This document shows, in pieces, positions 540 to 13,576 of a stretch of DNA of 64,000 bases. The DNA is taken from positions 1 through 64,000 of the forward strand of contig JAGXAJ010000005.1 of the NCBI GenBank assembly GCA_018971625.1, in the 5' to 3' direction. A program made the position numbers and the translations under genes. The notes under the pieces were generated by a model. That model searched no databases. It was not told the DNA's origin and saw only the letters and a program-made list of their open reading frames with translations. This DNA is from Pseudomonadota bacterium (lineage in GTDB: Bacteria > Pseudomonadota > Alphaproteobacteria > Rhizobiales > Xanthobacteraceae). Numbering within the stretch: position 1 is the stretch's first letter; each line of letters starts with the position of its first letter.

Positions 540-956
540 ATGGCTCTAAAAGTCGAACTCAAGCCGAACGAACGCATCATCATTGGCAGCTGCGTCATTA
601 CCAACACGGATCAACGCGCGCGGCTTCTCATCGACGGCGACAAGGTTCCGATCCTGCGTGAAAAGGATATCCTGACTCCGCTCACCGCGAACACGCCGGC
701 CAAACTGGTCTATCTGGCGGTGCAGCTGATGTATATTTCGCCGAACCCGCAGGCCAATCACGGCACCTATTTCAATCTGGTGCGCGATATCGTCACTGCC
801 GCGCCGAGCGCATGGCCAATCATCGAGGGCATCAACAACAGCATCATGCGCGGCGATCTCTACCAGGCGTTGAAGGAAGCCAGGAAATTGATCGCCTATG
901 AGAAGAAGCTGCTGGACCACAACCAGTCCATCCAGGGCCGGCAAAGCGCCGCCTGA
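540..956 (+). CDS. flbT: flagellar biosynthesis repressor FlbT
   Basis: A 138-residue protein starting MALKVELKPNERIIIGSC, the signature N-terminus of FlbT. It continues with the conserved segment NTPAKLVYLAVQLMYI and a helical C-terminus rich in K, E and L. FlbT is an alphaproteobacterial post-transcriptional regulator that binds flagellin mRNA leader and couples flagellin synthesis to hook completion. The ATG at 540 gives the family's usual length of about 130-150 residues. An upstream extension of the same frame to 249 has no FlbT-like sequence. The gene sits beside a flagellin, its normal context, but the partner flaF is not seen in the window. It converges with the decarboxylase gene, whose stop is 10 bases away. 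Confidence 0.93.
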   Translation: MALKVELKPNERIIIGSCVITNTDQRARLLIDGDKVPILREKDILTPLTANTPAKLVYLAVQLMYISPNPQANHGTYFNLVRDIVTAAPSAWPIIEGINNSIMRGDLYQALKEARKLIAYEKKLLDHNQSIQGRQSAA

Positions 957-966
957 CGGCGGATCG

Positions 967-2481
967 CTACATCGCCAGCGGCGGCGATTCCCTGATGTCG
1001 AGCACATCGCCGCTTGAGCCTGCGCGCCGATCACCGAATTCCAGCACTGCCGCGATCAACGCATCGATATCGCAAACGTCGGTGCGGTGATTGACGATCG
1101 CCGCGCGAATCGCGAGCCGGCCATCCAGCACCGTCGTCGACGGCGCCGCGATCCCGGACTCATGAATGTCGGCGACGATGTCGCGATTGATCTTGCAAGG
1201 TTCAGTGGCCCGATAGCGGAAGCAGACGATGTTGAGCTGAACTGGCGCCATCAGCTCGAGCCGTGGCTCGGCCAGGATCCGCGCTTCCAGATAGCCGGCC
1301 AGCGCGCAGGTGCGTGCGATGACCGCTCCGAGCTTCTCGGTGCCGTAGGTTTTCAGCGTAAACCAGGTCTTGAGCGCGCGAAAGCAGCGTGACAGGTCGG
1401 GACCGATATCGCAAGGCCAGGATGAGCCGGCGGCAAGCCCTCTGGTCTCGCGGCGCAGATAGGCTGCCGGGGCCGCAAACGCATCGCGATGCCGGTGGCC
1501 ATCGCGCACCAGAAGGAAACCCGCGTCGTAGGGTACCTGACCCCATTTGTGAAAATCGAGCGCTATCGAATCGGCATTTTCGATTCCGGCAAGTCGCGGC
1601 GCCAGCGCCGGCGCAAGAATCCCCAACGCGCCATAGGCGCCATCGACGTGAAACCAGACGTTCTGCTCACGACACAATTCGCCCAGCGCCGCGAGATCGT
1701 CGATCGCGCCGATGTCGACCGTGCCGGCGGAACCGACGACAAGGAACGGCGCGAGGCCGGCCTCACGATCCCTGACAATCTGGACGCGCAGGGCCGCCAC
1801 ATCAATGCGATGATCCCGATCGACCGCGATGTTGCGTAGCGCGTTGCTGCCGCAACCCGCGATATCCATTGCTTTGGTGATGCAGCCATGCGCCGCCTTT
1901 GAGGTGTATGCGGTCAACAGCGTACCTTGATGACCGATACCGCATTGCCGGGCGGATGATCCGAGCGCTGCCGTTCGCGCCACCAGTACCGCCATCAAAT
2001 TCGCCATCGACGTGCCGGTGACGAAAATCCCGCTCGCCCCGGCGGGAAAGCCGAACATCGAACGCATCCATTCCACGATCTGGCGTTCGACCTCGATCGG
2101 CATGTGATCGCGGCCGCCGAGATTGGCATTGAGTCCCGCGGCCAGCATCTCCGCCAGCATGCCCACGGCGGTGCCGCCGCCATGCACCCATCCCATGAAG
2201 CCGGGATGCACATTTCCGGTCGCATAGGGCAAAATGAAATCCGCGAACTCGCGATAGACTTCGTCGAGCGCGGTGGGCGCGCCCGGGAGAGCGGCACGAA
2301 ACCGCGCGCGAACATCGTCCGGTATCGGCGACCATACCGGGCGCTCACGAATGTTGGCGGCATAATCCAGCATGTCGTCGAGCATGCGATGACCTAGCGC
2401 GCGTACCTCATCCCAGTTTTGTGGATCGAGGCTCTCGCTCGATCCGGATTGCAATGATTGCTGGCGCTGGAGAACGGTCAT
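967..2481 (-). CDS. group II pyridoxal-dependent decarboxylase (aromatic amino acid decarboxylase-like)
   Basis: A 504-residue fold-type I PLP enzyme. Visible motifs are NVHPGFMGWVHGGGTAVG in the N-terminal third, ATP-independent PLP pocket segment WFHVDGAYGALGI, and the Schiff-base lysine in LDFHKWGQVPYD at about residue 312. These are the marks of the group II decarboxylases that act on tryptophan, tyrosine, DOPA, glutamate or 2,4-diaminobutyrate; the substrate cannot be read from sequence. The ATG at 2481 overlaps the TGA of the upstream ATP-grasp gene by four bases (ATGA), so the two are probably translationally coupled. It is the last gene of the flagellar-linked cassette that follows flgE-flgK-flgL. 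I infer it supplies an amine to the cassette, which is unproven. Confidence 0.85.
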   Translation of the reverse strand: MTVLQRQQSLQSGSSESLDPQNWDEVRALGHRMLDDMLDYAANIRERPVWSPIPDDVRARFRAALPGAPTALDEVYREFADFILPYATGNVHPGFMGWVHGGGTAVGMLAEMLAAGLNANLGGRDHMPIEVERQIVEWMRSMFGFPAGASGIFVTGTSMANLMAVLVARTAALGSSARQCGIGHQGTLLTAYTSKAAHGCITKAMDIAGCGSNALRNIAVDRDHRIDVAALRVQIVRDREAGLAPFLVVGSAGTVDIGAIDDLAALGELCREQNVWFHVDGAYGALGILAPALAPRLAGIENADSIALDFHKWGQVPYDAGFLLVRDGHRHRDAFAAPAAYLRRETRGLAAGSSWPCDIGPDLSRCFRALKTWFTLKTYGTEKLGAVIARTCALAGYLEARILAEPRLELMAPVQLNIVCFRYRATEPCKINRDIVADIHESGIAAPSTTVLDGRLAIRAAIVNHRTDVCDIDALIAAVLEFGDRRAGSSGDVLDIRESPPLAM

Positions 2482-3710
2482 GCTGCACGCTCTTGCTGTT
2501 GCGTTGCGCGACGATCGAGCATCGCTGTGAACGCGTCGAATATTTTGCGCATCTGCGGCTGCTTGTAGGGAAACAGATCGACCCGGTCCATGTCGTGCAC
2601 GATCGCCGCATTGTCGGCCTCGAAGACCAGCAGCGCGCCATCGCTGGCTTCGGCACAATCGACGATGAAATAATCCAGACCGACACGCGCCGCGATTGCC
2701 GCGAGCGCGCATTCATGGCGCCGCGCAAATTCGTCATCGAATGCGCGCATGAAGTTTTCCTCTTCGAGCCGCTTGCTCGCGCTCTGTGACATGCCTGCGT
2801 TGAGATACCAGATGTCCCAGCGATCGGCGATCGCAAGATGACAGGCGTAAGGTCGACCGTCGATAAACACGATGCGGTATTTGCGAAACAAACCATCCTC
2901 ACTCGCATAGCCGACAAATCTCGAAAGGAAAAATTCCTGTTCCCGACGCCCGTCGAGATAGTTCCGCAGCGCGGCGCGATCGCCGATCTTCGCAAGGCCC
3001 CCGCCCGCATGCGACCCGCGCGGCCTGACGATGACGGGAAAGACAAGATCGCTTGCGATGTCAGACAATGCGAGCTGCGAGCGCGACAGCTCATGTAGCC
3101 TCGCGCGCGAGACGCCGATGGTCGTCGGAATCTGCAAACCCTCGACATCATCGAGCACGCTATGCAATTTGTCGCGGTCGAGATTGCCGACCCGATGAGG
3201 TGGATTGAGCAACGGGCGCGGCCAGCGCGCAGCGGCGCGCTCGATCCTGGAGAGCGCATCGCGGGTTTCCCCGGAATCCGAGGCAATCACGATGGCGACG
3301 TCGTGATCGGGCAGCGGCGTGGGAAGCTCTGCATCCGGCACGACATAGAGCGTCATCAATTCGACTTCGGAATTGGCCAGCAGAAACTCGATCGGCGTAT
3401 TGCTGCCGATATCGGTTGCGGCGGCGAGCGCGAGAACACGCAGCCGCGGTCGTTCCGGAGAATCCTTCAGGCGAAACAATTGATGCGAGGCCAGGATCTG
3501 TTGCTGAATTGCGAGCCCGGCCTCCTTGTCGCCCAGCAATTGCGCAATCAGCGCCAGATCGAGCCCCTCCCCCGCTCCCAAGGTGCCGTCGATCAGTTTC
3601 GTGATCAGGCTGTGCCATAGCGGACGAAGATCGATACCGCTGACCTGCATCCGGGTCAGCGAGGCGACGCCGAGGCGGTCGGCACAGGTCGGCGGCACCT
3701 CACGCCGCAT
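2478..3710 (-). CDS. ATP-grasp ligase, RimK/glutathione-synthetase-like (copy 1)
   Basis: A 410-residue protein with an N-terminal helical region (MQVSGIDLRPLWHSLI onward), a Rossmann-like middle part (VAIVIASDSGETRDAL) and a C-terminal ATP-grasp domain. The ATP-grasp features are VIVRPRGSHAGGGLAKI (nucleotide loop), LFRKYRIVFIDGRPYACH, and the metal-binding end VDCAEASDG followed by LLVFEADNAAIVHDMD. Such enzymes join a carboxylate to an amine with ATP; the substrates here are unknown. The ATG at 3710 overlaps the preceding glycosyltransferase by 11 bases. Homology to copy 2 (6239-7492) starts at CADR, residue 9, supporting this start. The ribosome site is weak, consistent with coupled translation. 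By eye more than half of the residues match copy 2. Confidence 0.8.
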   Translation of the reverse strand: MRREVPPTCADRLGVASLTRMQVSGIDLRPLWHSLITKLIDGTLGAGEGLDLALIAQLLGDKEAGLAIQQQILASHQLFRLKDSPERPRLRVLALAAATDIGSNTPIEFLLANSEVELMTLYVVPDAELPTPLPDHDVAIVIASDSGETRDALSRIERAAARWPRPLLNPPHRVGNLDRDKLHSVLDDVEGLQIPTTIGVSRARLHELSRSQLALSDIASDLVFPVIVRPRGSHAGGGLAKIGDRAALRNYLDGRREQEFFLSRFVGYASEDGLFRKYRIVFIDGRPYACHLAIADRWDIWYLNAGMSQSASKRLEEENFMRAFDDEFARRHECALAAIAARVGLDYFIVDCAEASDGALLVFEADNAAIVHDMDRVDLFPYKQPQMRKIFDAFTAMLDRRATQQQERAA

Positions 3711-4473
3711 CGGTCGCAAGCACCGGAGCGGCAAATTGCGCCGAGATATCACCGTTGAACACGGAAGGGCCGACATGATCGAGCCGGCTTTCGAGATCAG
3801 CCCAGATTTCGCCGCCGATATCGGTCCAGCGTTTGCAAAAGGCGAAATCCTCGCTCAGATAAGTTCCGGTCTTGGGATCGATCATGCATTCGAACAAGGC
3901 AAATCGATTGGGACTGCCGGCCAGCGCATCGAGCGAATGCTCGCGGAAGAATTGCAATGCAGGATTGGCCACGCACAACTTCTCGAACACGTGACGTCGG
4001 ATCATCAGGAAACCGGTGCCGGCGTAGCGCACGCGAGTGAAGCCGTCGACAACCTCGACATGATCTGGATCGTTGATCTCCAGTACATAGTCGAGCGAGG
4101 AGGCTGGCACGTTCGGCTTGTTGCTTGAGATAGCCCGTCGCGCCTTGTCCCAGTTGACGCGCTTGATCGGATAAAGCCCGGCGACCACATCAAAGCCGGA
4201 CTCTATCAGGCGAAAAACCTGCTTCGGCGTGAAGCCGATATCCGCATCGACGAACAGGAAGTGCGTCGTGGCGGGATCGTCGAGGAACTGCGTCATCAGG
4301 TTGGCGCGAGCGCGCGTGATAAGCGCATCGCCGTCACGCAGCAGCACCTTGAATTCGGCGTTGGACTTCGAGCGCATGGCGCTCTGCAGCTTGAAGATGG
4401 AGCTGGCGTAGATGCTGGAAACCTGCCCTCCGAAACAGGGCGTAGCGACCACCAGGTGAATTCGCTCGGTCAT
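3700..4473 (-). CDS. glycosyltransferase-like protein with DxD motif
   Basis: A 257-residue protein beginning MTERIHLVVATPCFGGQV. It carries a GT-A type DxD centre in THFLFVDADIGFTPK at about residues 80-95, preceded by ALITRARANLMTQFLDD, a segment typical of small GT2-like transferases that add sugars to surface or phage structures. There are no membrane segments or signal peptide, so it should act in the cytoplasm. ATG 4473 follows GGAG at six bases, which decides the start. It lies between the TPR-glycosyltransferase and ATP-grasp copy 1, overlapping the latter by 11 bases, within the flagellar-linked cassette. Donor and acceptor are not known; flagellin, hook or an envelope glycan are possible acceptors. 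Confidence 0.72.
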   Translation of the reverse strand: MTERIHLVVATPCFGGQVSSIYASSIFKLQSAMRSKSNAEFKVLLRDGDALITRARANLMTQFLDDPATTHFLFVDADIGFTPKQVFRLIESGFDVVAGLYPIKRVNWDKARRAISSNKPNVPASSLDYVLEINDPDHVEVVDGFTRVRYAGTGFLMIRRHVFEKLCVANPALQFFREHSLDALAGSPNRFALFECMIDPKTGTYLSEDFAFCKRWTDIGGEIWADLESRLDHVGPSVFNGDISAQFAAPVLATDAA

Positions 4474-4570
4474 GATTGGCTCCGAAGCGGTAGAAGCCGC
4501 CTGCAATCCTCGCCAAACAGTAAATAGACGTGGTTAACGAAATCCTAACGTCCCGTCCCGGCGGAGTGTT

Positions 4571-6151
4571 CTAATGCCAGCCGGACATCCTGCTTGCTGC
4601 TGGGCCCGCGGCGCGTAGTTCGTCGCGCAAACCATGGATCACGCTAGCCCAGTCGCCGAAGGCGGGTTGTCGCAGCAATTTCGCGCTCGGATACCACGGC
4701 GTGTCGGCGCGCTGCCGCATCCAGCGGAAATCCGCGGCGTGAGGCAGCAGGATTACGACCGGCTTGCCAAGCGCGCCCGCCAGATGTGCGACCGCGGTAT
4801 CGACCGATATCACCACGTCGAGCAGCGAGATGATGGCGGCAGTGTCGGCAAAGTCGCGGATTTCGTCGCCGAGATGCATCAGCTTCGGCAACTCGCGCAA
4901 TGTTTCGCGGTCAGCGACGCGCAACTCGGTTTGAAGGCTGAGGCAACGCAGCGGCGGGTCTTCAAATAACGAAGCGAGCTGTCTGAGCGCGATCGAACGG
5001 TTGGCGTCGTTTTTGTGCATCGGCGAACCGGACCAGACAAACCCCGCCCGGGGTCCGTCGGGCGGCAGGCGCTCGCGCCAATGCGCCAGACGATCTGCCC
5101 TCGGCGCCAGATATGGGGCACCAGCCGGGATCGTCCCAAGCTGCGTCCCGAACGCCAGGGGAAGACTGAGCAGCGGACAGTGCAGGTCAAATGCCGGCAG
5201 TGCGTCGCCTTTCGCGATCACTTTGACATCGTCGAGTTGCGACAACAGGGACGTCAGCTCCGGCTGAATCTCGCAGATCACGTTAGCGCCCTGCCCTTTA
5301 AGCAGCGGCGCGTAGCGGACGAACTGGATGGTGTCGCCAAAACCCTGCTCGGCATGCAGCAAGATGGTCTTGCCGGCGACCGGCTCATGACCGAGCCACA
5401 ACGGTTGCCAAAATGACCGCCGATGCCGGACGAAAGCGGCGGCTTTCCAGCGCCATTCATATTGCTTCCAGCCCCTGGCGAAATCGCCCAGCGTCAGTCG
5501 TGCCATCGCGGCTTCGAAATGCGCCTCGGCAAATTCGCCCGCGGCAGCCAATGCTGCCGCGAAATCAACCAGCGCCTGTTCGGGCCGATCAAGCCGGCGC
5601 AGTGCATGGCCGCGATTGGTCAGGATTTGCGGATGACCGGGTAGCTCGACCAGCGCCGAATCATAGTTCGCTATCGCCTCTTCCGGCTCATTCAACCGCA
5701 GCAGGGTATTGCCCCGATTAACCAGCGCCCCGGCGTGATTCGACACCTTGGTCAGCACGGCGTCGTAGTTCATAAGCGCCTGGTCGAACCGGCCGAGCTC
5801 GAGGAAGGCGTTGGCGAGGTTGTAGAGAATTTCCGGATGATCCGGCGCCAGTTGCAGGGCATTGCGATAACTTGCGATCGCCTCGTCATAGCGCCCAGTG
5901 GCATGAAGCGCGAGGCCAAGATTCGACATCGCATCAGATGAGCTCGAATTGACCTCTAGCGCCGCTGCCAGGAAGCGCAGCGCCTCCACGAGGTGCTGAC
6001 GCTGGAAATGCAATACGCCAAGCATATGCAGCGCATCGAAATTTTCAGGACGGAATTCAAGAATGTCCGTGCACAGCCGCTCCGCGGTGTCGAGATCGCC
6101 TTCCTGAAACGAGTTCAAGGCCTGCCGTTGCAAGCGAGACAGGTTCGGCAT
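4571..6151 (-). CDS. TPR-repeat glycosyltransferase (GT9/heptosyltransferase-like C-terminus)
   Basis: A protein of about 526 residues. The first 230 residues are tandem TPR units of 34 residues, for example FDALHMLGVLHFQRQ, then SDAMSNLGLALHATGRYDEA, then PEILYNLANAFLELGRFDQA and more. The second half carries LLHAEQGFGDTIQFVRYAPL and, near the C-terminus, DVVISVDTAVAHLAGALGKP, hallmarks of the heptosyltransferase-like GT-B fold used by TPR glycosyltransferases in Bradyrhizobium. It probably glycosylates a protein or surface glycan in the cytoplasm. The position just after flgL and an ATP-grasp gene suggests flagellin or hook modification. ATG 6151 is preferred; a TTG at 6205 in the same frame would add 18 residues. 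The ribosome site is poor for both. Confidence 0.82.
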   Translation of the reverse strand: MPNLSRLQRQALNSFQEGDLDTAERLCTDILEFRPENFDALHMLGVLHFQRQHLVEALRFLAAALEVNSSSSDAMSNLGLALHATGRYDEAIASYRNALQLAPDHPEILYNLANAFLELGRFDQALMNYDAVLTKVSNHAGALVNRGNTLLRLNEPEEAIANYDSALVELPGHPQILTNRGHALRRLDRPEQALVDFAAALAAAGEFAEAHFEAAMARLTLGDFARGWKQYEWRWKAAAFVRHRRSFWQPLWLGHEPVAGKTILLHAEQGFGDTIQFVRYAPLLKGQGANVICEIQPELTSLLSQLDDVKVIAKGDALPAFDLHCPLLSLPLAFGTQLGTIPAGAPYLAPRADRLAHWRERLPPDGPRAGFVWSGSPMHKNDANRSIALRQLASLFEDPPLRCLSLQTELRVADRETLRELPKLMHLGDEIRDFADTAAIISLLDVVISVDTAVAHLAGALGKPVVILLPHAADFRWMRQRADTPWYPSAKLLRQPAFGDWASVIHGLRDELRAAGPAASRMSGWH

Positions 6152-6238
6152 CCGCCCAGACGGATTTTTCCACTTTGCCGACAATGGAGAGCGCTTTCGA
6201 ATCAACCAATGTCCGGCAAAATAGCATTTCTCCCGGCA

Positions 6239-7492
6239 TCATGCCGGGCGTTCGCGGCGTCCTCCGGCGCGATGCAGCAGCATTGCCGCAAAGGCATCGA
6301 AAATCCTGTTCATCTGCGGCGATTTGTAGGGAAAAATTTCGGGTGAATCCATGTTGTGGACCACTGCAGTGTTGTCCGCCTCGAAGATCAGCAATTCGCC
6401 CGCCTTGTTTTCCGCGCAGTCGACCGTGAAATAGTCGAGACCGATGCACTTGGCCATTCCGGCAAGCGCGTGGCAATGGCGGACAGCGAAGGCATCGTCG
6501 AACGTTCGCATGAAGTTCGCCTCTTCCGCGCGCTTGCTCTCGCTGAAGGCCATGCCGGCGTTGAGGTACCAGATGTCCCAGCGATCGGCGATCGCCATGT
6601 GGCAAGCATAGGGCCGGCCGTCGACGAAGACGATGCGGTATTTGCGAAAAAGGCCGTCGTCATTGGCGTAATCGACAAAGCGAGAGACGAAGAATTCCTG
6701 TTCCGGTCGTCCGGCGAGATAGCGGCCGAGTGAGGCTCGGCCGTCGATTTTGGCGAGGCCATTGCCGGCATGCGAACCGCGCGGCCGGATGATGATCGGA
6801 AACCGCATATCGGCCGCGATATCCGCCAACGGACCATCCATCTGTGCCAGATCCGAGAGCCGCGCACGGGTCATGGCTTCGGTCGCGGGCATATCGAGGC
6901 CTTCGATGCCGTGCAGCAGCCGATGCAGCTTGTCTCGATCGAGATTGCCGACGCGCTGCGGCGGGTTGAGCAGCGGTCGCGGCCAGTGCGCTGCGATCCG
7001 ATCGATCTTGCGCAGCGCCTCCCGGCACTCTTCCGAATCGGACGCGATCACGATCGCGACGTCATGTTCCGGCAGCGGCGACGGCAATTCCACGCCGTTC
7101 ACGACATAAAGCGTCTGCAGTTCGGTGCCGGAATGCTCGAGCAAGAACTCGATCGGCGTGTTGCCGCTTACATCCATCACCGCCGCGAGCGCGAGCACCC
7201 GGAGTTTCGGCTGTTCGAGCGAACAGGGTGAGCGGAACAACTGGTGGAAGGCCAGTACCTCGTCCTGCACCGCGAGCCCCATCTGCTTGTCGCCAAGCAG
7301 CTGCACGATCAACGACAGGTCGAGCCCCTCGCCGGCATCGACCGTTCCCATGGCGATCTTCGCCATGATCGCATCGCGCATCGGACGAAGATCAACGCCA
7401 TTGAAGGCCATAGTGGTGAGCTTCGCAAACCCGATGCGGTCGGCGCAGGGGTAGCTGACAAGTTCGGCGCGATCTACGCGCTTGAGCTCCAT
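6239..7492 (-). CDS. ATP-grasp ligase, RimK/glutathione-synthetase-like (copy 2)
   Basis: A 417-residue paralogue of the gene at 2478-3710, with the same order: helical N-terminus (FNGVDLRPMRDAIMAKI), middle domain (VAIVIASDSEECREAL), then ATP-grasp motifs IIIRPRGSHAGNGLAKI, LFRKYRIVFVDGRPYACH and VDCAENKAGELLIFEADNTA. ATG 7492 is preceded by GGAGG at about seven bases, the best ribosome site in this block, and the gene follows flgL by 38 bases. So it is expected to be translated strongly with the hook-associated proteins. It should form an amide or thioester-like bond using ATP, in the cytoplasm, with unknown substrates. The two copies flank the two glycosyltransferases, which suggests sequential addition of two related units or two substrates. 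Confidence 0.82.
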   Translation of the reverse strand: MELKRVDRAELVSYPCADRIGFAKLTTMAFNGVDLRPMRDAIMAKIAMGTVDAGEGLDLSLIVQLLGDKQMGLAVQDEVLAFHQLFRSPCSLEQPKLRVLALAAVMDVSGNTPIEFLLEHSGTELQTLYVVNGVELPSPLPEHDVAIVIASDSEECREALRKIDRIAAHWPRPLLNPPQRVGNLDRDKLHRLLHGIEGLDMPATEAMTRARLSDLAQMDGPLADIAADMRFPIIIRPRGSHAGNGLAKIDGRASLGRYLAGRPEQEFFVSRFVDYANDDGLFRKYRIVFVDGRPYACHMAIADRWDIWYLNAGMAFSESKRAEEANFMRTFDDAFAVRHCHALAGMAKCIGLDYFTVDCAENKAGELLIFEADNTAVVHNMDSPEIFPYKSPQMNRIFDAFAAMLLHRAGGRRERPA

Positions 7493-7530: not shown

Positions 7531-9438
7531 TCAGCCGATCGGCAGGTATTTGGTCAGCGTCAGCTGCGACATCATCGAGGTGGTCTGATAGGACGCCTGC
7601 AGGGCGGTCTGCAGCGCCAGGATTTCGCTGGCCACCTGCTGGGTGGAAACGGTTTCGGTATTGTCCACCATGGTCTGCAGCATGATCTGGCTCTGCGCCT
7701 GCCGGGCGCTGGTGTCCTGCATCACGGTTTGCGCGCGGGCAAAATCCGACTGGATGTCCGCGATGGTCTGCTGGCCGGGCTGCGGCGTCAGGTCGGTCGC
7801 GATGCGCTGGCTCAGCGCCGAGATCTGTGCAGCCGAATTCGCGCCCGTCGGCGAAGCCGTGAACGCGGCGAACACCGCAATCGACTGCAGCTGCGAACGA
7901 ATCGCCGATTCATTGGCCTGAGCGCCATATTGCACAGTGATCGCGGAATCGACCCGAGCGGTCGATGAAGCCCGCGCCGATCCCGGCCCCGAATTGCCGG
8001 TGTACCATTGCACGGTGTTGGCCGAGGTGCCCGCGACCAGCGACGTTGCCGAACTGAGCGGCGAGCCGCTGACCCGCAAGGGAGGCACCGGCGCCGTTAT
8101 GCTGCTGCCGCTGAAACCGAGCCCTGCGAGTGCGCCCGACGGCGAGGTGGTGATCGAGAAGCTCGAAGCGTCGTCGGTATGAATTTCAACCACGCCACCA
8201 TCGATGGTCGAGGGGGTCGATGTGCCGGTGATGGAGTCGATCGCACTCAAGAGATCGCCGACCGTGGCGGTCGTGCTGATCTGCCCCGATCCCGCGGTGC
8301 CGTTCACGAAGGTCAGCGTGGTGCCGTTGACCGTGATGGTGTCGCCGGCCGTGAAGCCGGGCGCCAGCGAATCCGTACCCGTCGAACCTGACAAGGCGGT
8401 CGCAGCCGTGATCGCGGTCGGCGGCACCGCCTGATTGGTGACCGGCGTATTTCCGGTCGCAACGCTTGCGGTATTGAAGAAGTTGTCGCCCGCCTCGATC
8501 GCAGACGCCGCGACCAGCGTCGTGTTGGCCACCGTGCCGATCGCCGTGTTCAGCGCCGTGGTGAGATTGGCCGCGGTCGCCGCGGGGGTGCTCCCGATCA
8601 GGAAGCTTCCGGTCGGCGGCGGCGACGTGGTCGTTGCCGTCAACTGCACCGACGCGGTGGTACCGTCAGGCTGATTGAAGGTGAAGCTGATCTGGTCGCC
8701 GGGGCTGGGATTGGTGGCGCCGAGATCAATCGAGATCGCAGCCGGCGAGCCCGACGGTCCGGTCACGGTGGCGCCGGTCAAAGACGATGTCACCTGGTTC
8801 AGTTTCAGTCCAAACGGCGAGCCGGCGGCGTCTTCCGCCACCGACACCACCGTCGATGTCGCCGGCGGCGTCGCCGGGGGGTTGGTGATCACGAGCCGGC
8901 CGGTGCCGCCGGGAACGGCACCGTCGGCCTGCGCGCGCTGGGCAATCAGCGTCTTCAATCCGGCTTGCGTGGCGGTGCCGTTGAGCATCTCGTCGACCGG
9001 AACCGTCGCCGGCGTGTTGATCGCATTGCCGGAAAACAGATAGCGGTCGCCGGACGGCGTGTTGAGGATGCCGATCATCGAGGACAGTTCGGCGTTCGCG
9101 TTCTCCTGGGCGATGGTCTGCCCGGTGCTGTCCAGCGTCTGCGGTGTCGAGGCCGCCGAGCTCTGCACCTGGCCGCCGAGGTTGGAGATTGCCTGCAGCG
9201 CGTTGTTGGCGGACTGGATCGAGGTCGAGACATTGCTGATAGTGTCGGTGAAGGCGGAGATGCTGGCGAGCTGTGACCGCGCCGCGATCGCAAATCCCTC
9301 ATTGACGCCCATGCCGGCGTAATTGTTCGACTTCTCGCCGGTCGCGAGTTGCTGCGACAGGGTGGTCATCTGGTTGTTGAGGCTGGTTATCGCCTGCCCG
9401 AGCGGCGAAGTGGCATAACCTATACTAGTGATCGACAT
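7531..9438 (-). CDS. flgL: flagellar hook-associated protein 3 FlgL (hook-filament junction)
   Basis: A 635-residue FlgL, about twice the enterobacterial length. N-terminus MSITSIGYATSPLGQAI then ITSLNNQMTTLSQQLATGEK, and the C-terminal helix QVASEILALQTALQASYQ, are the flagellin-like D0/D1 termini. Between about residues 160 and 480 lies a long threonine/alanine/glycine-rich surface insertion containing one copy (about 350-445) of a repeated module of the kind DTITVNGTTLTF...AGLGFSG, also found twice in FlgE here. It assembles on the second junction ring between hook and filament after export. ATG 9438 lies 10 bases from the flgK stop, so flgK and flgL are cotranscribed. The call as FlgL rather than flagellin rests on position after flgK and the termini. 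Confidence 0.88.
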   Translation of the reverse strand: MSITSIGYATSPLGQAITSLNNQMTTLSQQLATGEKSNNYAGMGVNEGFAIAARSQLASISAFTDTISNVSTSIQSANNALQAISNLGGQVQSSAASTPQTLDSTGQTIAQENANAELSSMIGILNTPSGDRYLFSGNAINTPATVPVDEMLNGTATQAGLKTLIAQRAQADGAVPGGTGRLVITNPPATPPATSTVVSVAEDAAGSPFGLKLNQVTSSLTGATVTGPSGSPAAISIDLGATNPSPGDQISFTFNQPDGTTASVQLTATTTSPPPTGSFLIGSTPAATAANLTTALNTAIGTVANTTLVAASAIEAGDNFFNTASVATGNTPVTNQAVPPTAITAATALSGSTGTDSLAPGFTAGDTITVNGTTLTFVNGTAGSGQISTTATVGDLLSAIDSITGTSTPSTIDGGVVEIHTDDASSFSITTSPSGALAGLGFSGSSITAPVPPLRVSGSPLSSATSLVAGTSANTVQWYTGNSGPGSARASSTARVDSAITVQYGAQANESAIRSQLQSIAVFAAFTASPTGANSAAQISALSQRIATDLTPQPGQQTIADIQSDFARAQTVMQDTSARQAQSQIMLQTMVDNTETVSTQQVASEILALQTALQASYQTTSMMSQLTLTKYLPIG

Positions 9439-9448
9439 CTACTTGGTC

Positions 9449-11311
9449 CTAGAGTTGCGCCTGGATCAGCGTGGTCATCATGCTTTGCACGACCGACATC
9501 ACGTGAGCATTGGCGGCGTAGGCATTCTGCAACGCGATCAGGTTCGACATTTCGGTATCGATGCTGACGCTCGCCACCGAATTGAATTTCTGCTGCAACG
9601 TGCTGACCACGACGTCCTGGCCCTGCTGCAATTGCGTCGCCGTGGTGGCCGCGTTGGCCTGCTGGCTGAGGAATTGCTGCATGAAGCCGGTAATCGTGCC
9701 GGAGAACAGCGACGCGGTCGAACCGAGGCCGGTCTGTGGCGAATAGGTGAACGAGCCCGTCGTCAACTGCGAATAGAGAAAATCCGAACGCGTAGTATCG
9801 CCGGCCGCGGTTGCCGGCGAGTTGCTGTAGACGGTAAAATTCGCCGGATTATTCACCAGCGCGGGATTGACGGTGATGCGGCCGGCATAGCCGGTCATCT
9901 GCGCGCCGACGCCGGTAATCGTACCGGTAAAGAGCGCGTTGCCATCGGTGAACAGCGGCAACTGCGCGCTGCCGCCGGTAAGCGACGTGGCCGTCGTGGT
10001 CGTCGACGCGGCATTGACCACCGTGGCCGCAGATCCGACTATCTTCAGCGTGGTGCCAGATGGATTCGAGAACACGACACCGGAACCGGCGAACGTCGTG
10101 TTGAGTTGTCCGACGATCGACGACATGCTACCGGAAAAATCGATGCCGATCATTTTCGGGCTGGCGTTCGGCAAATTCTGCAGTGGCAACGCGGTCGGAT
10201 CGGTTACGTTGACAATCTGTATCTGCTGCTGGGCCAGCGTCCCGGTGTTGGTTACGGTCAGACTGATACTGTTGCCCGGTGAAATGTTCGACGTATCGAC
10301 GCTGAAGCCGGCCGGCGGTCCGGTGACGGGGCTGCCGGCCGTGGTCGTGTCGGACAATGCGCTCGACATCGTCGCCGCGAGCTGGTCGACCTGGTTCTGC
10401 GCCTGCACCAGGGTCTGGTCCCGCAGTTTCAGATCAGCCGCGATCTGCCCGGAACTGATCGAATTGTTCGCGACCATGTCGAAGCTGGCGCCATTCGGAA
10501 GCTGGATCGTCAGCGAGCCGACGCCGGATTTGGCCGGATCGGTATTGTACAGTGAATTGGCCGTCAGCGCTCCCGGTGAGGAGAACGATATCTTCGATGC
10601 CAGCTCGCCGCCGACAAGCTGCACGCCCGCTGTGGTGAACACGCTGGTTTCGTTGGAAGCATCGGTGACGGTGCGGACATCCATCAACTTTGCCAGATCG
10701 CTGATCGCGCTGTCGCGCTGATCCATCAGGGTGGCGGCCGCCGGATCGGTCGGCGCCAATCCCTGCAACCGGGTATTGATCGTGGCGATCTGGCTCATGT
10801 CTGCGTTGGCTTGCGTCACCGACGAGCCGATGTCCTGCTCGACATTGGAGCGCAGTGTCTGGATGCCCTGCGAGGTCGCGTTCAGCGATTGCGCCAGCGA
10901 TTGCGCGGCCGCAAGCGCCGCGGTCTGCGCCGACTGGCTGCCCTGGCTGGTCGACAACGCTTGCAGCGCCGTCGTGAAGTTGCTGTAGCTGGTTTCGAGC
11001 GTGCCGTCGCCGCCCGGAGGGCCGTAGACGCTCTGCAGCTGGCCGAGGATATTGGCCGTCTGGTCAGCATAGGCGCCGCCGGAAGTTTCGGTACGCAACT
11101 GGCTCTGGATATAGAGGTCCAGTTGGCGGTTGACGCCGTTGACTGCAACGTTGCTGCCGGTGCTGCCGCTCGGCAGTTCGATCTGGTTCGGCGTCTGGGT
11201 GACGTAGCCGGGCGTTTGCGCGTTGGCTATATTGCCGGACACGATCGAAAGCGCGGCCTGGTTGGCGCGCAGACCGGACATCACAGTCGCAAGGGCAGAA
11301 CTCAAACCCAT
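9449..11311 (-). CDS. flgK: flagellar hook-associated protein 1 FlgK
   Basis: A 620-residue FlgK. The N-terminus MGLSSALATVMSGLRANQAA and ALSIVSGNIANAQTPGYVTQ is the rod/hook-family motif (SGNIANxxTPGY). FlgK-specific features follow: TNRQ-like VNGVNRQLDLYIQSQLRTET, VYGPPGGDGTLETSYSNF, and the C-terminal SNLIALQNAYAANAHVMSVV coiled segment. FlgK forms the first ring on top of the hook and joins it to FlgL. Export is by the flagellar type III apparatus, so no cleaved signal is expected. It follows flgE by 48 bases and precedes flgL by 10. Length is close to the family's usual 550-650 residues. Confidence 0.93.
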   Translation of the reverse strand: MGLSSALATVMSGLRANQAALSIVSGNIANAQTPGYVTQTPNQIELPSGSTGSNVAVNGVNRQLDLYIQSQLRTETSGGAYADQTANILGQLQSVYGPPGGDGTLETSYSNFTTALQALSTSQGSQSAQTAALAAAQSLAQSLNATSQGIQTLRSNVEQDIGSSVTQANADMSQIATINTRLQGLAPTDPAAATLMDQRDSAISDLAKLMDVRTVTDASNETSVFTTAGVQLVGGELASKISFSSPGALTANSLYNTDPAKSGVGSLTIQLPNGASFDMVANNSISSGQIAADLKLRDQTLVQAQNQVDQLAATMSSALSDTTTAGSPVTGPPAGFSVDTSNISPGNSISLTVTNTGTLAQQQIQIVNVTDPTALPLQNLPNASPKMIGIDFSGSMSSIVGQLNTTFAGSGVVFSNPSGTTLKIVGSAATVVNAASTTTTATSLTGGSAQLPLFTDGNALFTGTITGVGAQMTGYAGRITVNPALVNNPANFTVYSNSPATAAGDTTRSDFLYSQLTTGSFTYSPQTGLGSTASLFSGTITGFMQQFLSQQANAATTATQLQQGQDVVVSTLQQKFNSVASVSIDTEMSNLIALQNAYAANAHVMSVVQSMMTTLIQAQL

Positions 11312-11359: not shown

Positions 11360-13576
11360 TCAGCGCAGTACGCTCAGCAGAGACTGAACCATGTCATTGG
11401 CCGTGGTGATCACCTTGGTGTTCGCCGAATAGGCCTGCTGGGTCACGATCAGCTTGGTGAATTCGTCCGCAATATCGGTGTTCGATCCTTCCAGCGACGA
11501 ACCGCTGATGGTGCCCGACGCACCGGCGATGGCCGGGCCGGAGCCGTCGGTGACGGCGTAGGCGCCGCCATCCAGCGCTTTCAGGTAGTTGGTGCCGTCG
11601 AAATGCGACAGCGTGACGGATGCGAGATCGATGTTCTGGCCGTTGGAGAACGTGCCGACCACGAGGCCGTTGTTGTTGATCGCAACCGACTGCAACTGGC
11701 CAGCGGCATAGCCATTCTGCGAAATGGTGTTGATGGTCGCGGTGCCGCCGGTGCTGGCGAACTGAGTCAAGCCGCCGGAGCCGAGATTGAGCGAAACATT
11801 GCCGAGCGACTGGCCGCTGACGGTCACGTTCGGGATGGTGATGGAGGAGCCGGACGGGCTCGACAGCGAGCCGTCGGAGTTGAAGGTAAAGTTGGTCCCG
11901 ACGTTGACCCAGGCCACCCCGGTTCCGGTCGCGCTCGGATCGGTCTGGTAGAACAGATTCCAGGTATCCTGGTGGCCGTTTCCGAGCGAGGCGCTGTCGG
12001 TCTTGGCCCATCGCAATTGCAGGTTAACCGGCGTGCCGGCCGAGTTGTAGGTCGTTATCGCGCCGCCGCTGATGCTTTCATTGGTGAATGCGGTGAGATC
12101 GTTGCCGATGACAAAGCCGGTGCCGGCCGTGCCGCCACCGGTGCGTCGCGCCGTCATCGGGGATGAGAAGCCGAGCGCGCCGAAGGCACCCGCCGTGCTG
12201 GAGAGCGTAAGATCCTGCGCGGTGCCAGTATGCAACGTGATCGCACCTGTGCTTGCGTTGATCGTCGGCGCAACGCCGGTGATAGTACCGATGTCGTTCA
12301 TGAGATCGCCGACCGTGTTGGTTGCGATATCGAGATAGTACGTATTGGCGGCGGGGGCGCCGGCGGTCTCCCCGGCTGCGGAATTATAGAAATTAATTGT
12401 GGAGGCTGGGCTGGTATCGACCGTAATGGTATTGCCGGACACAAAGCTCGCCGACAGCGCGGTGGCCGGCGGCGTGACGGGAGCAGCAAAGCCAAGCGCG
12501 GCGAAAGCACCGGTGTTGGAGCTCGATACCGACAAGGTCCCGTTGGTGTTGTTCAGGGTGACCTTGCCCGTTGCGCCGTTAACGCTGGACGGGTTCGCCG
12601 TGCCGGTGAGCGCGTCGATCTTTCCGAGCAGAGTCGTGATGCTGTCGGTGATGTTCACGTGATTGTTGTCGCTCGCGCCGGACGCGACAAACGTAATCGT
12701 CTGACCGTTCACCGTGATCGTGTCGTTGACCGCAAAGCTCGTTGTCAGCGCGTTGGACGAGGTGCCGGACAGCAACGTCGAGCCCGAGATCGGCGCGGCG
12801 GACGTATTGGTGGCGGCAGCGCCGGTCGCCGTGCCAACCGACCCCGACAGTGCGGTCGACGCCGTGATCGGGCCGGTGCCTGCCTTGTCCAGGGCGGCCG
12901 AGCCGGTCACGGTGTTATCACCGTAGGGTGTGGCCGGGGTTCCAATGATAAGTGGATTCGAGGCGAAGTCGGCCGGATTCAAACCGCCGGCGGCGGCAAG
13001 CGTGCCCTTGGATGCGGTGGTGCTGGCCGTCGTGGCTGGTTGGGTCGGCAGGTTCGCGGCGTATTGAATGGCGCTGGTGGCCTGGGCCGGCACGAAGTTG
13101 TTCTGGAACTGGAGAACCTGCGGAACGTTGCCGAGCGGGTTTCCGGTCTTCGGATCGACCGCGACGCCCATCAGGTAATATCCGGCGCCGTTGACGAGGT
13201 TGCCGTTGGCGTTGACCTGGAAATCGCCGCGCCGGGTGTAGTCGGTGGTGCCGCTGAACACCGGGGCGTTATCGATCGTCCCGGTAGACGCCTGTACCGA
13301 GAAGAAACCGTCGCCGTTGATCGCCATGTTGGTCGCGACCGTCGATGCCGAGACGGTGCCTTGCGTGGTGATCGTCGCTTGCGCAAAAGCGGTCACGCCG
13401 CCTGCGACCTGCCGGCTCGGCGTCGTCGCATCTGGAATCAGATCTTCGAAGCTGGTGTTGATGCCCTTGTAGCCCGTGGTCGAGGCATTCGCGATGTTGC
13501 CGGAGATGTTCTGCAGCGCAAAGGACTGCGCCTGCAGACCGCCAACCGACGTATTCAGCGCGTCGAAGATACCCAT
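11360..13576 (-). CDS. flgE: flagellar hook protein FlgE (large form)
   Basis: A 738-residue hook protein, much longer than the 400-residue E. coli protein. N-terminus MGIFDALNTSVGGLQAQSFA with ISGNIANASTTGYKGINTSF, then the D1 piece NMAINGDGFFSVQASTG; C-terminus SSLEGSNTDIADEFTKLIVT and TKVITTANDMVQSLLSVLR. Two related insert modules sit at about residues 272-365 and 370-475 (each with a TITV core and ending in ALGF), similar to a module in FlgL and to the DUF1522 type seen in long flagellins. It polymerises into the universal joint. ATG 13576 has GGAG eight bases upstream and a sigma-54 promoter about 70 bases upstream, marking it as first gene of the operon. Confidence 0.93.
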   Translation of the reverse strand: MGIFDALNTSVGGLQAQSFALQNISGNIANASTTGYKGINTSFEDLIPDATTPSRQVAGGVTAFAQATITTQGTVSASTVATNMAINGDGFFSVQASTGTIDNAPVFSGTTDYTRRGDFQVNANGNLVNGAGYYLMGVAVDPKTGNPLGNVPQVLQFQNNFVPAQATSAIQYAANLPTQPATTASTTASKGTLAAAGGLNPADFASNPLIIGTPATPYGDNTVTGSAALDKAGTGPITASTALSGSVGTATGAAATNTSAAPISGSTLLSGTSSNALTTSFAVNDTITVNGQTITFVASGASDNNHVNITDSITTLLGKIDALTGTANPSSVNGATGKVTLNNTNGTLSVSSSNTGAFAALGFAAPVTPPATALSASFVSGNTITVDTSPASTINFYNSAAGETAGAPAANTYYLDIATNTVGDLMNDIGTITGVAPTINASTGAITLHTGTAQDLTLSSTAGAFGALGFSSPMTARRTGGGTAGTGFVIGNDLTAFTNESISGGAITTYNSAGTPVNLQLRWAKTDSASLGNGHQDTWNLFYQTDPSATGTGVAWVNVGTNFTFNSDGSLSSPSGSSITIPNVTVSGQSLGNVSLNLGSGGLTQFASTGGTATINTISQNGYAAGQLQSVAINNNGLVVGTFSNGQNIDLASVTLSHFDGTNYLKALDGGAYAVTDGSGPAIAGASGTISGSSLEGSNTDIADEFTKLIVTQQAYSANTKVITTANDMVQSLLSVLR

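Follow-up and report, generated by a model that had tools for sequence, protein, structure and literature searches.

The subject of this analysis is a cassette of five genes placed inside a flagellar hook operon, in a stretch of 64,000 nucleotides (hereafter the window; positions 1 to 64,000 of contig JAGXAJ010000005.1, assembly GCA_018971625.1) from an alphaproteobacterium of the Xanthobacteraceae whose genome appears to belong to the Bradyrhizobium group. The cassette encodes a group II pyridoxal phosphate (PLP)-dependent decarboxylase (PLPdec), two copies of an ATP-grasp protein (AG1 and AG2, with AG standing for the kind in general), a tetratricopeptide repeat (TPR) protein with a glycosyltransferase (GT) domain (TPR-GT), and a putative glycosyltransferase that we call the DxD protein after its motif. 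Together with the flagellar genes that enclose it, the cassette is laid out as follows:

540..956, plus strand: flbT, convergent with the cassette (PF07378, 141 bits; NF009432, 218 bits; start placed at the methionine preceding the domain)
967..2481, minus strand: PLPdec, group II PLP-dependent decarboxylase (PF00282, 218.2 bits)
2478..3710, minus strand: AG1, ATP-grasp copy 1 (65% identical to AG2; 4-base overlap with PLPdec)
3700..4473, minus strand: DxD protein, putative glycosyltransferase (invariant D76-A77-D78)
4571..6151, minus strand: TPR-GT, TPR plus GT9-like glycosyltransferase with an FlmG-like domain layout (TPR families, PF01075)
6239..7492, minus strand: AG2, ATP-grasp copy 2 (predicted helical N-terminus, then a RimK/LysX-like ATP-grasp domain)
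7531..9438, minus strand: flgL, hook-filament junction protein (position after flgK; sub-threshold PF00669 and TIGR02550)
9449..11311, minus strand: flgK, hook-filament junction protein, type A (TIGR02492, 309.9 bits; cut-off 170.75)
11360..13576, minus strand: flgE, hook protein (TIGR03506, 243.8 bits; cut-off 70.25)

Read along the minus strand the order is flgE-flgK-flgL-AG2-TPR-GT-DxD protein-AG1-PLPdec, and the gaps from flgL onwards measure 38, 87, 97, -11 and -4 bases, the last being an ATGA overlap. A preliminary description of this DNA had given these eight genes with their strand, order, gaps and overlap, and all of it is confirmed from the sequence. FlgL falls under the cut-offs of the families that it matches (PF00669, Flagellin_N, 22.4 bits versus 26.6; TIGR02550, 48.2 bits). 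Since the window begins at base 1 of its contig (C34), flagellin genes beyond flbT, if any, lie outside the view. An Rfam scan of the window gave no match, and promoter and terminator patterns were no commoner in it than in shuffles. Measured against the related loci L005 and L006, the ratio of nonsynonymous to synonymous substitution (dN/dS) of the cassette genes is low, at 0.11-0.23.

The family of the decarboxylase is clear, with a PF00282 score far above the cut-off of 27 bits and 4obu as the closest solved sequence (E 2.7e-62). His198, Asp280 and an HK motif containing Lys312 are invariant in 14 aligned rows; we take Lys312 to be the PLP-binding lysine and the conserved residues to occupy catalytic-type positions. 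PLPdec scores below the cut-offs for both the MfnA tyrosine decarboxylase (TIGR03812, 82.3 bits versus 299.4) and the RhbB diaminobutyrate decarboxylase (NF052646, 195.1 bits versus 900), and it also resembles 5o5c, an enzyme of the desferrioxamine pathway. The ATP-grasp proteins are more distant from named families: neither AG1 nor AG2, nor the DxD protein, reached any Pfam or NCBIfam cut-off, and the RimK family TIGR00768 (cut-off 143.4 bits) was missed by AG1 at 15.3 bits and gave no match to AG2. The predicted structure of AG2, judged by the model and its fold matches, is an ATP-grasp fold with an extra helical N-terminus. Its VIA-align list is headed by RimK and ArgX/LysX, which attach amino acids to proteins; AG2 differs from these in its low identity (14-21%), in missing the RimK family cut-off, and in the additional N-terminal helices. 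A profile of the AG family matched LysX 3vpd (E 4.8e-6), and its PDB matches were topped by TPR proteins because the alignment included TPR fusions. D358, E371 and D373 are invariant in 10 aligned rows and presumably represent the acidic Mg-binding residues late in the ATP-grasp domain that correspond to residues of RimK. The model assigns AG2 to the ATP-grasp superfamily, and a carboxylate-amine ligase activity is predicted for both copies.

The two candidate transferases are of different kinds. In the DxD protein D76-A77-D78 is invariant in 27 of 27 rows; a Pfam Anp1 match is sub-threshold and found in 16 of the 27, and the best PHROG (phrog_1574, 4e-32) is itself without known function. It is a candidate sugar transferase, perhaps of the GT-A type. 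Sequence matches in the PDB to talin and hedgehog were taken as chance. TPR-GT combines TPR families at the N-terminus with a C-terminal PF01075 domain (26.3 bits, cut-off 22), which we take to be a GT-B-type glycosyltransferase domain, and thus has the domain layout of the FlmG type. The same genome (G000) holds 7 further TPR-GT matches at E <= 1e-40; on contig C80 (59313-67209) five consecutive TPR-GT matches occupy long reading frames of up to 1710 codons. A further protein, X (for example L030:8293-9951), enters the picture through the related loci, where it stands between the DxD protein and AG in the commonest order. It has no Pfam match, its PDB matches all stand at E 0.36 or above, and from its motifs GTD, D-A-C-Q and GSK we presume that it is perhaps a PLP enzyme; kinship with PLPdec was considered and dropped, the profile comparison giving a probability of 0.2 per cent. 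In the window X is missing from the interval that separates flgL and flbT, and a search of the window's own genome, which lacked a positive control, did not find it.

Conservation was assessed from a scan with AG2, in which the best 80 of 118 matches correspond to 77 distinct loci, the presence of the ligase being given by the query. PLPdec is present in 73, flgK in 73, flbT in 72, the DxD protein in 71 (a count that takes in partial matches, as in L025), X in 67 and TPR-GT in 6. These are tblastn counts except for FlgE, FlgL and X, which rest on gene calls; sequence matching with FlgL used its first 150 residues, and the gene calls in relatives follow a simple rule of length and codon position that missed or misplaced some genes. 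Two of the four loci without PLPdec are ends of the fetched stretch. The commonest order, flgE-flgK-flgL-DxD protein-X-AG-PLPdec and then flbT, is exact in 43 of the 77 loci by gene calls, in which reverse-strand frames supplant PLPdec at some loci. L027 is the sole locus of another setting, with fliC and flbT and no flgEKL. The neighborhood of the cassette, recurring in most of these loci, is more than chance.

The window's precise combination of five genes is rare, and X is absent from it. The window's order without inserts is found in L006, and L007, L009 and L014 carry X and further stretches between the genes. Only 4 of 117 Bradyrhizobium genomes have a second AG-kind ligase at the locus. 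In the tree AG1 and AG2 fall into two older groups, each common to other loci (98/91 and 98/97), AG1 clustering with the second copies of L006, L007, L009 and L014 (98/91). The nearest relative, L005, whose AG2 is 92% identical, retains only a remnant of AG1 (L005:13786-13945) between intact genes for the DxD protein and the decarboxylase. The idea that all five genes form a single conserved unit was given up, with the second ligase copy and TPR-GT both rare. What holds is the pair of ligase and decarboxylase, the steadiest pair and the core of the cassette, around which the DxD protein, X and TPR-GT vary.

Within Bradyrhizobium the link to the flagellum proposed at the outset is borne out. 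Among 117 genomes AG was found in 74 (E <= 1e-20) and flgK in 114, and FlgK was typed by its identity to FlgK of the window as A (60% or more, observed 61-74%) or B (51-55%), with flgK and AG positions transcribed by hand and all 114 genomes with a flgK match represented among the matches listed. AG is present in 73 of 74 type A genomes and in 0 of 40 type B genomes, counts uncorrected for kinship; G286 has AG and no flgK match. AG and flgK share a contig in 71 of the type A genomes with AG, always within 12.6 kb, and lie on different contigs in two. The type B loci L119, L121 and L124 read flgL, flbT and fliC without the cassette, which is also missing from L120 and L122. Relatives of TPR-GT (40-41% identical) lie between flgL and fliC both in L123, on the same strand and without ligase or decarboxylase, and in L126 (G269), on the opposite strand, where TPR-GT, flagellins and AG-PLPdec all stand between flgL and flbT; a TPR-glycosyltransferase next to flagellins, as the preliminary description had it, is thus seen in these two relatives. 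The B. diazoefficiens strains SZCCT0138 and SZCCT0449 carry the cassette (L050 and L059). The subpolar filament of B. diazoefficiens consists of 68-kDa FliC1-4 (PMC4823718). Because flagellin genes adjoin flbT in several loci, the cassette probably belongs to the subpolar flagellar system.

Outside the genus the association is with the enzyme pair more than with the flagellum. Genomes were searched by order (199 genomes, E <= 1e-10) and by class (337 genomes, E <= 1e-20), and the ligase or its TPR fusions appeared in 14 and 19 of them, respectively, the window's own genome being in both counts and the first also including three of that genus. An AG-kind ligase is present in 13 genomes of other genera (G036, G052, G069, G104, G113, G136, G188, G323, G331, G369, G386, G455 and G640). 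PLPdec is adjacent to AG or one gene off in six of these (G052, where the two genes are convergent, G069, G136, G323, G369 and G386), and contig ends in G455 suggest a seventh pairing. In G386 a single frame of 884 amino acids contains PLPdec and then AG, with X beside it. The two genes overlap by ATGA in G369, and a one-base error in an overlap of this sort could mimic a fusion like that of G386. A close PLPdec (E <= 1e-200) occurs in 9 of the 13 genomes, although the profile contained copies from four of these nine positives (G052, G069, G136 and G188). Coupling of the decarboxylase to an ATP-grasp ligase, as first suggested, is upheld by the presence of PLPdec in 73 of 77 loci, by recurrence in other families and by one single frame.

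Whether the cassette lies mainly off flagellar genes, a finding that by the preliminary description would rule out a flagellar role, received a mixed answer. Flagellar genes were recognised in the fetched flanks of the ligase in only 3 of the 13 outside genomes (G052, G104 and G369), and they are near the enzyme pair in two of six (G052 and G369). On the other side flgK is found somewhere in 11 of the 13; G113 has no match, and G369 has none yet carries fliC and flbT at the locus. The flagellar setting recurs in L103, L107, L157 and L027: L103 has flgEKL, flbT and fliC beside the AG-PLPdec module, and L157 brings together X, fliC, flbT, AG and PLPdec, with fliC and flbT between X and the pair. 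Across the class flgK is mildly enriched, in 16 of 19 genomes with the ligase family versus 176 of 318 (one-sided p 0.010, uncorrected for kinship; counted by eye, with TPR fusions and the window's own genome included). Of the two associations, that between ligase and decarboxylase is the steadier, flagellar loci being one of several surroundings in which the pair is found.

We give a little better than an even chance to the following scheme for a flagellum-linked cassette. PLPdec likely produces an amine, a RimK/LysX-like ligase likely uses ATP to activate a carboxylate and joins the amine to it, and the DxD protein and TPR-GT likely attach the product to axial proteins of the flagellum. The amine used by the ligase is presumably the product of the decarboxylase, the carboxylate may come from a sugar acid, some other small acid or the side chain of a protein, and the target may be flagellin, hook or junction protein. 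We favor this scheme because of the layout, the protein families, the predicted fold of AG2, the conserved residues, the low dN/dS, the co-occurrence with FlgK type and the recurrent pairing. Several observations weigh against it. The model of the DxD protein is poor (predicted local distance difference test score 43.7) and too weak for a fold search. Foldseek ranks D-Ala-D-Ala ligases first for the AG2 model, together with an inositol kinase, and ITPK kinases score about as well as LysX by Z (16.3 versus 16.5); the modeled fold does not fix the chemistry, and a kinase-like use of the ligase may apply. One type A locus, L127 (G232), keeps the DxD protein alone between flgL and flbT, and L013 keeps TPR-GT, the DxD protein and AG with no PLPdec before flbT. 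FlgK types A and B are possibly two clades, in which case the 73:0 split may be one event. Beyond the genus, four of the six pairs (G069, G136, G323 and G386) are away from flagellar genes, as is G455 as far as its contigs show, and G036, G104, G113 and G331 are without a close PLPdec.

The closest contender, which we hold to be a serious possibility at somewhat under even, is that the glycosyltransferases alone touch the flagellum, the other three enzymes (ligases and decarboxylase) serving to modify the sugar donor, as they would by amidating a sugar acid ahead of its transfer. A TPR-GT relative beside flagellins without ligase or decarboxylase (L123) and the DxD protein alone in G232 are consistent with such a division of labor, as are the two NeuB matches in the window's own genome and, in Shewanella, a slightly smaller flagellin mass shift upon loss of SO_3265 than upon other sfm losses (PMC3765264). 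A nonulosonic acid as the required donor was nevertheless rejected: a NeuB-type synthase shows no tie to the cassette and turns up in 5 of the 8 ligase-bearing genomes tested and in 2 of the 4 that lack the ligase. The flagellar neighborhood could also be incidental, the module of ligase, decarboxylase and sometimes X making a small metabolite (a peptide-like amide, or something siderophore-like or cofactor-like) and merely being located there in Bradyrhizobium. We regard this as fairly unlikely. The four pairs away from flagellar genes and the resemblance of PLPdec to enzymes of siderophore pathways (RhbB, 5o5c) point toward it; against it stand the near-complete co-occurrence with type A FlgK, the 71 genomes with AG within 12.6 kb of flgK, and the flagellar genes within or beside the module in L157 and L103.

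Two further readings were weighed. It is unlikely, in our estimation, that the ligase acts on the flagellum itself, with its TPR-like helical N-terminus docking an axial protein before export and the RimK-like domain adding to that protein or its glycan an amine made by the neighboring, once fused, decarboxylase; if true, the Bradyrhizobium flagellum would carry a biogenic amine all over its surface, and the fusions of TPR and ATP-grasp seen elsewhere would form a wider class of amine-attaching enzymes. Inheritance of the neighborhood by descent in one Bradyrhizobium clade, with no functional tie between flagellum and cassette, we think very unlikely. The two FlgK types may indeed track species clades, but the interval has been repeatedly rearranged, with X, the DxD protein and TPR-GT coming and going while the pair persists, and both the low dN/dS and the recurrence of the flagellar setting in other loci argue against mere descent.

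The scheme of a decarboxylase supplying an amine to a ligase for use on the flagellum has partial precedents. In methanofuran biosynthesis the tyrosine decarboxylase MfnA and the ATP-grasp tyramine:glutamate ligase MfnD provide a case in which the amine made by a PF00282-kind decarboxylase is taken up by a partner ligase of the ATP-grasp type (PMC8141765). There the product is a soluble cofactor with no flagellar link, and the MfnA family score is far from reached by PLPdec; MfnD was compared by description. ATP-grasp genes in flagellin-modification loci are likewise on record. In Shewanella oneidensis SO_3265, in the SfmABCDE operon, is such a gene, and its deletion shifts flagellin on gels, normal motility being tied to SO_3261-3264 and not to SO_3265; that locus, compared by description, differs in having a PseI-like SfmA, a reductase and a methyltransferase, and the paper nowhere uses the word decarboxylase (PMC3765264). 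The type B flagellin locus of Clostridium difficile likewise has an ATP-grasp gene, CDR20291_0245, which encodes a PF13535 protein with FemAB-, cyclodeaminase- and FdtB-like neighbors, and again the paper nowhere uses the word decarboxylase (PMC5207246). Caulobacter FlmG, a flagellin O-glycosyltransferase with an N-terminal TPR and a C-terminal GT-B-type domain (PMC7591256), resembles TPR-GT in domain layout and in the placement of TPR-GT relatives near fliC. The likeness is one of layout and gene placement, and TPR-GT of the window differs in sitting with ligases and a decarboxylase.

The preliminary claim that no flagellar modification with this enzyme set had been described therefore stands for the decarboxylase and fails for ATP-grasp proteins, which were already in print in the two loci above; the combination with a PLP decarboxylase has no parallel in the literature searched. 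No published flagellar modification with a PLP decarboxylase was found in a search that touched decarboxylases only narrowly, and no paper was found on Bradyrhizobium flagellin with ATP-grasp proteins or on six bll58xx locus tags. A paper on Bradyrhizobium DOA9 lists an ATP-grasp gene with an RpoN site, which is not identified with the ligases of the window. The results provide a testable function for a ligase family to which no Pfam or NCBIfam cut-off led in the case of AG1 and AG2 and which is tied to a decarboxylase across several families of the class. If the favored scheme is right, amide-linked amine chemistry would join the known sugars on bacterial flagella, and a consistent difference between two Bradyrhizobium groups in the flagellar surface that meets soil, roots and phages would be explained.

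Relatives of the ligase also occur in other company. In the window's own genome (contig C139) L082:9525-13013 holds two divergently read genes for TPR::ATP-grasp fusions, whose ligase parts share 34% and 27% identity with AG2, with no flagellar genes recognised in the 19 kb fetched. At L027:590-9529 (Xanthobacteraceae) the genes after a flagellin gene encode a TPR::ATP-grasp fusion, a protein that matches HAD below threshold and that we take to be FkbH-like, a 2-oxoglutarate (2OG)-Fe(II) oxygenase and a 68% relative of AG2. L113:2824-12472 unites X, a decarboxylase, a 2OG oxygenase, a TPR::ATP-grasp protein and an FkbH-like protein at a single locus, again with no recognised flagellar gene. 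A TPR-sulfotransferase gene precedes that of the ligase in L101:9344-12360 (PF13469, 174 bits) and, by eye, in L102:6102-8992, with no flagellar gene recognised nearby; by genome, a TPR-sulfotransferase precedes AG in G036 and, by eye, also in G113. L065, on a contig titled Frankia sp. RB7, is a typical Bradyrhizobium flagellar locus, and the label is probably wrong. In L108, L109 and L110 a stretch of FlgE is 47-49% identical to part of FlgL, so that hook and junction protein have a domain in common there.

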